Shown piece by piece: positions 61,567 to 63,926 of a stretch of DNA of 64,000 bases. The stretch is from Bacteroidota bacterium (GTDB lineage Bacteria; Bacteroidota; Bacteroidia; Chitinophagales; Chitinophagaceae), in assembly GCA_003175935.1 (NCBI GenBank), contig PSRI01000048.1, positions 1 through 64,000 on the forward strand, written 5' to 3'. Both the position numbers and the translations under genes were made by a program. Position 1 is the first letter of the stretch. The number at the start of each line of letters is the position of its first letter. A model generated the notes under the pieces. The model worked only from the letters and a program-made list of their open reading frames with translations, did no database searches and was not told the DNA's origin.

Positions 61567-61598
61567 TTTGTTCAATTAAACTCTGACGCTTATTTTTG
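61567..61598 (+). promoter_or_regulatory. Candidate Bacteroidetes-type promoter of his operon
   Basis: TTTG (61567-61570) - 20 nt - TATTTTTG (61591-61598). Confidence 0.65.
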
Positions 61599-61612
61599 TT
61601 CCAATATTTAAC

Positions 61613-61663
61613 ATGCTTAGAATCGCACATCATCATCACCATCATTACTTACCCCGAGGGTAG
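61613..61663 (+). CDS. hisL: his operon leader peptide MLRIAHHHHHHYLPRG (six consecutive His codons)
   Basis: ATG CTT AGA ATC GCA CAT CAT CAT CAC CAT CAT TAC TTA CCC CGA GGG TAG immediately upstream of hisG. Confidence 0.88.
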   Translation: MLRIAHHHHHHYLPRG

Positions 61664-61734
61664 GCCGGTGTAATTTTGTGCAATCTCAATACAAAATGCT
61701 AAGGGCTTACCGTAAGGTAGGCCCTAATTTTTTT
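61648..61734 (+). promoter_or_regulatory. his transcription attenuator (pause hairpin, antiterminator, terminator)
   Basis: CTTACCC/GGGTAGG; GGTAGGCC/GGCTTACC; AGGGCTTACC-GTAA-GGTAGGCCCT followed by 7 T. Confidence 0.85.
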
Positions 61735-61755
61735 GCAGAATATCTAAACACCCCA

Positions 61756-62622
61756 ATGGGCAGTAAAATGAAATTGAAATTGGCTATTCAAAAATCAGGC
61801 AGACTTCACGAAGATTCAATCAAATTATTGAAGGAATGCGGGATTGATATTTCAAATGGAGCGAATAAACTAAAAACCGAAGCGACCAATTTCCCATTGG
61901 AAGTATTTTTTTTGCGGGACGATGATATTCCCCAATATGTTGAAGATGCGGTTGCCGATATTGGAATCGTGGGTGAAAATGTGGTTTATGAAAAGAACAA
62001 ATCGGTAGAACTCGTTGAGAAGCTGGGATTCGCCCCTTGTCGGTTGAGCCTCGCCGTGAGTAGAGGTGAGAACTACAGGGATGTGAAATACTTAGAAGGA
62101 AAGAAGATTGCCACAAGCTATCCTTCCCTTGTTCAGAAATATTTGGATGAGCATAAGATCAATGCCGAAATTCATGAAATCAGCGGGTCTGTTGAGATTG
62201 CACCGGGCATTGGATTAGCAGATGCCATTTGCGACTTAGTGAGTAGCGGATCTACTTTGCTAACAAATGGATTGAAAGAAGTGGAAACGATTTTGAATTC
62301 ACAGGCCATTCTTATCAGAAATAAAAAACTCAGTGATCCTCATCAGCAACTACTGAACAAATTATTATTCCGTATACAGGCGGTGAAGAAAGCAAGGAAT
62401 AACAAATATGTTTTGCTTAATGCTCCCAATGATAAATTGAAGGAAATAATTTCACTTTTACCCGGAATGAAAAGTCCGACTGTTTTACCTCTGGCCGACG
62501 AGGGGTGGAGTTCTGTGCATAGCGTTTTGAGCGAGGATGAGTTCTGGGATAAAATTGAGCAGCTTAAGGCCGCCGGCGCACAGGGTATTCTTGTTGTTCC
62601 AATCGAAAAAATGGTGATTTGA
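61756..62622 (+). CDS. hisG: ATP phosphoribosyltransferase (start 61756 or 61768; ORF-track start 61678 lies inside the attenuator)
   Basis: KLKLAIQKSGRLHEDSIKLLKECGI..., EISGSVEIAPGIGLADAICDLVSSGSTL. Confidence 0.94.
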   Translation: MGSKMKLKLAIQKSGRLHEDSIKLLKECGIDISNGANKLKTEATNFPLEVFFLRDDDIPQYVEDAVADIGIVGENVVYEKNKSVELVEKLGFAPCRLSLAVSRGENYRDVKYLEGKKIATSYPSLVQKYLDEHKINAEIHEISGSVEIAPGIGLADAICDLVSSGSTLLTNGLKEVETILNSQAILIRNKKLSDPHQQLLNKLLFRIQAVKKARNNKYVLLNAPNDKLKEIISLLPGMKSPTVLPLADEGWSSVHSVLSEDEFWDKIEQLKAAGAQGILVVPIEKMVI

Positions 62623-62648: not shown

Positions 62649-63926
62649 ATGAACATTTATAAATTTCCTTCAAAAGCTGATTGGGATGATATCCTTAAAA
62701 GGCCCTCCATTGATTCTTCTTCCCTTATTCAAAGTACAAAAGCAATACTGGAAGATGTAAGGGCAAAAGGTGATGAATCAGTAAAAAAATATTCCCTGCA
62801 ATTTGATGGAATTTCTGTTGATGAAATGAAAGTGTCTGAAAATGAAATTTCAGAAGCAGTTGCACATATTGATACTACTTTGAAAGACGCCATTGACCAG
62901 GCGCATTCAAATATTGAGAAATTTCATCTTTCGCAGGTACAAAGTACCATACCGGTTGAAACTATGCCCGGAGTAAAATGCTGGCGCAAAAATGTAGGTA
63001 TTGAAAAGGTTGGACTTTATATTCCAGGCGGCTCAGCACCATTGTTTTCTACAGTTCTCATGCTGGCCATTCCTGCAAACATTGCGGGTTGCAAAGAAAT
63101 TGTCTTATGCACTCCTCCCGGCAAAGATGGAAAAATTCATCCTGCGATTCTTTATGCTGCAAATAAGTCTGGTGTGAATTCGATTTTCAAAATCGGAGGA
63201 GTGCAGGCAATTGCATCAATGACTTATGGAACTGAATCAGTCCCAAAAGTTCATAAAATTTTTGGACCGGGTAATCAATACGTGACCTGTGCGAAGATGT
63301 TAGTTCAACAGGACGGAATGGCGATTGATATGCCAGCGGGTCCGAGTGAAGTATGCGTGCTGGCAGACAATTCAGCGAATCCTTCTTTCATAGCTGCCGA
63401 CCTTTTGTCGCAGGCAGAGCACGGTCCTGACAGCCAGGTTGTTTTAATTTCTGATTCCTGGACAATTTTGGAATCTGTTCAAAAAGAAATATCGAAACAA
63501 CTTGAATTGCTGCCTCGTAAAGAATTGGCTGTTCAATCTCTTAACAATAGCAGGCTTGTACTAATTGAAAACCTGGATCGTGGTATTGAATTGGTTAACG
63601 CTTATGCTCCGGAGCATTTGATAATTGCATGTGAAAAGGATGAAACGATATCCGAAAAAATCATAAATGCAGGTTCAGTTTTCCTGGGAAACTATGCACC
63701 TGAAAGCGTGGGTGATTATGCAAGTGGAACTAATCATACATTGCCCACTAACGGTTATGCGCGGGCATATAGCGGTGTGAGTATAGATAGTTTTGTGAAA
63801 AAAATAACCTATCAAAAACTTTCCGAGGCAGGATTAAAAACCATTGCTCCCACTGTCGTTGCCATGGCTGAAGCAGAACAGTTGCATGGACACGCCAATG
63901 CTGTTTTGATAAGATTTAATTCATGA
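62649..63926 (+). CDS. hisD: Histidinol dehydrogenase
   Basis: GLYIPGGSAPLFSTVLMLAIPA, KIFGPGNQYV, AIDMPAGPSEVCVLAD, DLLSQAEHGPDSQV. Confidence 0.96.
   Translation: MNIYKFPSKADWDDILKRPSIDSSSLIQSTKAILEDVRAKGDESVKKYSLQFDGISVDEMKVSENEISEAVAHIDTTLKDAIDQAHSNIEKFHLSQVQSTIPVETMPGVKCWRKNVGIEKVGLYIPGGSAPLFSTVLMLAIPANIAGCKEIVLCTPPGKDGKIHPAILYAANKSGVNSIFKIGGVQAIASMTYGTESVPKVHKIFGPGNQYVTCAKMLVQQDGMAIDMPAGPSEVCVLADNSANPSFIAADLLSQAEHGPDSQVVLISDSWTILESVQKEISKQLELLPRKELAVQSLNNSRLVLIENLDRGIELVNAYAPEHLIIACEKDETISEKIINAGSVFLGNYAPESVGDYASGTNHTLPTNGYARAYSGVSIDSFVKKITYQKLSEAGLKTIAPTVVAMAEAEQLHGHANAVLIRFNS

Follow-up and report, generated by a model that had tools for sequence, protein, structure and literature searches.

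The his attenuator of enterobacteria comprises a leader with His codons, mutually exclusive hairpins and an intrinsic terminator preceding hisG. In the Bacteroidetes/Chlorobi, attenuators are reportedly mentioned in the older survey of Vitreschak from 2004. According to Naville and Gautheret, leader-peptide systems were known only in Proteobacteria and Actinobacteria before they added the Firmicutes in 2010 (PMC2965389), where His leaders carry three to five His codons together with a terminator and an antiterminator (PMC9413887, PMC2965389). The latter leaders belong to another phylum than the element described here and occur in few lineages, and the Firmicutes and Bacteroidota His leaders are likely of separate origin. 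Within the Bacteroidetes, the bacteroid-trp motif (RF01692), named for trp, was proposed as a candidate cis-regulatory RNA (PMC2864571), and a 2021 survey that covered the his genes of the Bacteroidota superphylum mentions attenuation, in its relevant part, for enterobacteria only (PMC8305728). A 2021 study of Flavobacterium psychrophilum found strong clues that amino-acid operons are subject to leader-peptide attenuation, and also describes a structured 5' element of hisG, which is conserved in other Flavobacteriaceae genera and has no Rfam match; the relevant passage holds no phylum-wide survey of this element (PMC9723704). Thus, this kind of regulation is already known, and what is added here is its wide spread and possibly a near-leaderless build.

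The element described here lies in a 64,000-nt stretch of a Chitinophagaceae genome (the window). It shares with the enterobacterial attenuator (Rfam RF00514, His_leader) the His-codon leader, the mutually exclusive hairpins and the intrinsic terminator before hisG, but unlike the latter it lacks a Shine-Dalgarno sequence and has a predicted 5' UTR of ~10 nt. RF00514 had no match in the window (E<=10) or in the genome, and in the best relative tested (L163) it reached 33.4 bits, that is below the threshold of 49. Neither a T-box nor RF01692 matched in the window; the latter is likewise a cis-regulatory candidate of Bacteroidetes, but is concerned with tryptophan. Other Rfam matches in the window at permissive thresholds were only snoRNA-like and similar chance matches and were dismissed. 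The hisG element of F. psychrophilum concerns the same phylum and gene, whereas the flavobacterial leaders and terminators that we found differ in sequence from those of the window. The logic of the element is that of the textbook attenuator of E. coli. With its conservation in a large part of the Bacteroidota, the element adds a new branch to a device that is already known and is not a device of a new kind.

The leader region upstream of hisG

A first-pass annotation made from the sequence had assigned positions to the leader ORF, the RNA segments, the terminator loop, the T run and the promoter, all of which proved correct to the base (Table 1). The claimed 1:2, 2:3 and 3:4 pairings are present as well, and the octamer GGTAGGCC occurs at both 61659 and 61716; this direct repeat was recognized by eye and was not listed by an automated repeat search. 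The cores of the 1:2 and 2:3 pairings have the extents claimed, but both structures are longer, as extra helices had been missed. In the 1:2 hairpin, GCACA additionally pairs with UGUGC and CACC with GGUG, so that its stem takes in part of the His codons and runs past the stop codon. The antiterminator 2:3 has an extra helix formed by ATTTTGT and ACAAAAT. The stop codon (TAG) of the leader sits inside segment 2, and two A separate the terminator stem from the T run. This three-hairpin build is shorter than the arrangement of the his attenuator in E. coli.

Table 1. Features of the candidate his attenuator and adjacent genes in the window.
Feature	Position	Strand	Details
Candidate sigma-A promoter (Bacteroidota type), predicted from sequence	61567-61598	+	TTTG 61567-61570, 20-nt gap, TATTTTTG 61591-61598
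Predicted start site	near 61603		expected from promoter, ~10 nt 5' of leader ATG
Leader peptide ORF	61613-61663	+	MLRIAHHHHHHYLPRG, then stop; 16 codons
Six His codons in a row	61628-61645	+	proposed sensing element
Segment 1, CTTACCC	61648-61654	+	extra 5' arms GCACA 61625-61629 and CACC 61637-61640
Segment 2	61658-61681	+	GGGTAGGCC 61658-61666 (contains stop codon), GGTG 61667-61670, ATTTTGT 61673-61679, TGTGC 61677-61681
GGGTAGG	61658-61664	+	partner of segment 1
GGTAGGCC	61659-61666	+	segment 2 core for 2:3 pairing
ACAAAAT	61691-61697	+	partner of 61673-61679 in second antiterminator helix
Segment 3, AGGGCTTACC	61702-61711	+	common to antiterminator and terminator
Terminator loop, GTAA	61712-61715	+
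Segment 4, GGTAGGCCCT	61716-61725	+	terminator 3' arm
Seven T of intrinsic terminator	61728-61734	+
hisG, ATP phosphoribosyltransferase (long form)	61756-62622	+	proposed regulated gene; TIGR00070 and TIGR03455 above cut-off
hisD, histidinol dehydrogenase	62649-63926	+	TIGR00069
hisC	from 63966		3' of hisD; read by eye

The setting in a his operon, as annotated earlier, is confirmed by NCBIfam models, which identify hisG and then hisD directly 3' of the attenuator; further along the contig that carries hisG-hisD-hisC, a bifunctional hisB was recognized by eye (locus L311). The start of hisG lies ~21 nt beyond the T run, and the leader and hisG ORFs do not overlap. The genes 5' of the leader run on the opposite strand, and therefore the terminator ends no other gene and can act only on RNA from the leader promoter. 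Outside the window, the histidine synthesis genes are followed on their own strand by likely genes for imidazolonepropionase and formimidoylglutamase (L311, contig C271, 7876-10430; by eye), putatively for histidine breakdown.

The 141-nt leader region folds with -38.9 kcal/mol (z = -3.9), and none of 200 shuffled sequences was equally stable. The antiterminator with both helices (-18.2 kcal/mol) and the terminator 3:4 (-18.8 kcal/mol) are nearly equal in energy, which is the balance needed by a switch. It had been suggested to fold the region with and without masking of the His codons and segment 1. When the RNA is masked up to 61654 and segment 4 is not yet made, the predicted fold is indeed 2:3, but 3:4 forms once segment 4 is present or when the mask extends to 61672, mimicking a ribosome at the stop codon. 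Moreover, 2:3 and 1:2 are similar in energy, and the unmasked RNA already prefers 2:3 before segment 4 appears. Thus, antitermination must win kinetically, as in known attenuators, and the off state relies on 1:2 forming first.

Conservation of leader, terminator and alternative pairings

To assess conservation, we used 80 hisG loci of named genomes, mostly Chitinophagaceae, together with the loci of 61 related genomes and of 247 genomes from across the phylum. The His runs expected in relatives by the first-pass annotation are present: of 218 distinct Bacteroidota loci, 179 have an ORF with such a run before hisG. The next residue reaches a count of 24, and dinucleotide shuffles yield 1.3 on average (maximum 5). 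Loci of the same genus are not independent, and the counts thus do not represent a probability. Leader and terminator occur together in 104 of 109 close loci, in 35/45 loci of other orders of the class and in 20/58 loci of other classes of the phylum. A candidate terminator 3' of the leader was detected in all but one of 178 loci and is strong in 163. A covariance model of the family (R1) finds one strong site per genome, with no second strong site in the genome of the window. Matches of at least 44 bits were obtained in 25 of the 29 family genomes possessing hisG and in none of the eight lacking it (G000-G036; Fisher p = 1.3e-5). Weak R1 matches (~30-42 bits) are scattered through the genomes and often fall on each strand of the same palindrome; we regarded these as generic terminators. 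At ten loci (L113, L132, L135, L138, L155 and L172; L121, L123, L124 and L127), short His-rich ORFs precede hisG without a strong terminator; these may act via translation or Rho.

The terminator, the antiterminator and the 1:2 hairpin are maintained while their sequences change, which agrees with the compensatory changes that had been predicted. Among 59 Chitinophagaceae-type sequences, 99.7% of the cells in 3:4 are paired with 40 cells changed on both sides, 42 cells are changed on both sides in 1:2, and the core helix of 2:3 is 98.5% paired; shuffled and slid controls gave lower values. The second 2:3 helix (61673-61679/61691-61697) is paired to 53% on a MAFFT alignment that misaligns this stretch, and is therefore not relied on outside the window. 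As the 2:3 and 1:2 cores overlap the leader reading frame, a coding constraint could account for part of their conservation, and segment 2 is partly fixed by this frame, which limits independent covariation. As compared to these pair counts within the family, we regard the change of sequence between lineages with retained pairing as the stronger argument. That is, terminator and antiterminator sequences differ wholly between lineages (GGCTTACC, CCCGTTTGA, ACCCCGGC), and the complementarities for 2:3 and 3:4 persist. Indeed, in 142 of 162 loci a segment located between His codons and terminator is complementary to the 5' arm of the terminator to a degree that places it among the best 5 of 100 shuffles. 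Between the last His codon and segment 2, the median distance is 13 nt in close (quartiles 12-13) and in distant relatives; the latter include a second group with gaps of 6-8 nt, which seems to arise mostly from leaders such as HHHHFH with an extra His after the run. Across relatives, the stop codon is in or near segment 2.

Proposed mechanism and competing explanations

From these parts, their conservation, the pairings and the spacing, we infer with a probability of roughly 0.9 that the element controls the his operon by ribosome-mediated transcription attenuation, responding to charged tRNA-His. A short ORF carries a run of codons for the end product, an intrinsic terminator separates leader and hisG, the mutually exclusive 2:3 and 1:2 structures are conserved, and the spacing suits the distinction between a ribosome stalled at the His codons and one at the stop codon. 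According to this model, transcription would start ~10 nt 5' of the leader ATG and a ribosome would begin the leader immediately. If charged tRNA-His runs short, this ribosome would stall on the six His codons and open the 1:2 hairpin, which is partly built of these codons, and segment 2 would stay free 13 nt ahead. The leading edge of a ribosome lies ~12-15 nt beyond the A site, which together with the 13-nt gap predicts that segment 2 is free during the stall. The geometry fits ribosome stalling, in line with the earlier interpretation that stalling would favour 2:3. Free segment 2 would then pair with segment 3 through both helices, preventing 3:4 and allowing transcription of hisG-hisD-hisC. 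When histidine is plentiful, the ribosome would reach the TAG and cover segment 2, upon which 3:4 could form and transcription would stop near 61734. In the case that no ribosome loads, 1:2 and 3:4 would form and transcription would stop as well.

The same leader and terminator could also be real and control nevertheless be mainly translational or Rho-dependent, with the leader coupling translation to hisG or shielding a Rho site and the hairpin serving as a weak constitutive attenuator. The first six of the above ten loci, which belong to distant relatives and have His-rich ORFs without a recognizable intrinsic terminator, would agree with such control. However, in nearly all loci of the family of the window the terminator is strong and segment 2 is complementary, and the ~21-nt distance of hisG from the T run with non-overlapping ORFs likewise argues against translational coupling, making this explanation improbable. 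That the 5' RNA is structured would also be compatible with sensing of something other than stalling, i.e. of tRNA directly by a T-box, of histidine by a riboswitch, or by means of an RNA-binding protein. Yet, no T-box, riboswitch or other Rfam family matches above threshold, and the conserved structure is limited to the mutually exclusive hairpins around the His-codon run, so that we consider direct sensing very improbable. Finally, CATCATCAC is a simple repeat, and a low-complexity CAT/CAC stretch could by chance lie beside an ordinary terminator; the shuffle and other-residue controls and the co-occurrence with hisG rule this out for practical purposes.

Leader 5' ends and other amino acid leaders

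The first-pass annotation had also pointed to a very short 5' UTR and the lack of a Shine-Dalgarno sequence, and both predictions hold across relatives. Of 163 loci, 138 have a -7 box of the form TAnnTT[TC]G no more than 70 nt from the leader ATG, as compared to 12 of 162 control stretches. Its distance to the ATG has a median of 11.5 nt for the His leaders (<=9 nt in 53 of the 138 and exactly 4 nt in 12) and of 7.5 nt for 12 Trp/Phe/Ilv leaders versus 23 nt for 15 genes of the window with such a box. If the box spans positions -12 to -5, as described in the relevant passage for F. psychrophilum (PMC9723704), about half of the 138 His leaders are predicted to have a UTR shorter than 10 nt, that of the window would measure ~10 nt, and the 12 leaders with a 4-nt distance would be leaderless, their start site falling on the ATG. 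Genome-wide, ~3.7% of UTRs are shorter than 10 nt in B. thetaiotaomicron (PMC7366714), and the F. psychrophilum study gives 5.5% leaderless in its relevant passage (PMC9723704). Before His leaders, Shine-Dalgarno-like words occur less often than expected (1 as compared to 4.5).

Bacteroidota largely lack Shine-Dalgarno sites and differ in translation start. A tentative idea, to which we give less than even odds, is that they have a distinct attenuation build that is general for His, Trp and Phe operons, in which a ribosome would load on leaderless or near-leaderless RNA as the 5' end emerges, replacing Shine-Dalgarno-driven loading. Attenuation needs a ribosome close behind RNA polymerase, and for transcription-translation coupling in Bacteroidota we found no settled answer in the literature consulted. 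The conserved and widespread attenuator thus argues for close coupling at least at the starts of these operons, and could serve as a direct reporter for testing it. In addition, it offers a putative regulatory part that would respond to histidine, and it is a candidate for a new Rfam family.

Comparable leaders precede other amino acid genes. The genome of the window encodes a Trp leader, MKKILINKHWWWHTNSIRGL, with a WWW run before trpE (L268, contig C184, ~1295-1420) and a Phe leader, MISTKTSSFFYGYFYFYFTGRPGLLWLKNA, before pheA (L249, contig C181, ~1295-1440), each followed by an intrinsic terminator, and Trp and Phe leaders with terminator occur in ~ten genomes of the family each. In some relatives (L227, L229, L234), an Ile/Val-rich leader and a terminator precede ilvD. 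Thr-rich leader ORFs before aspartokinase-homoserine dehydrogenase in few genomes have no clear intrinsic terminator and were not counted. At two loci, L300 (genome of the window, contig C18, from position 75) and L309, a Thr-rich leader ORF without a clear T-run terminator carries a conserved AACCCTTTAAGGGTT hairpin around its stop codon, a combination that possibly represents another mode of control.
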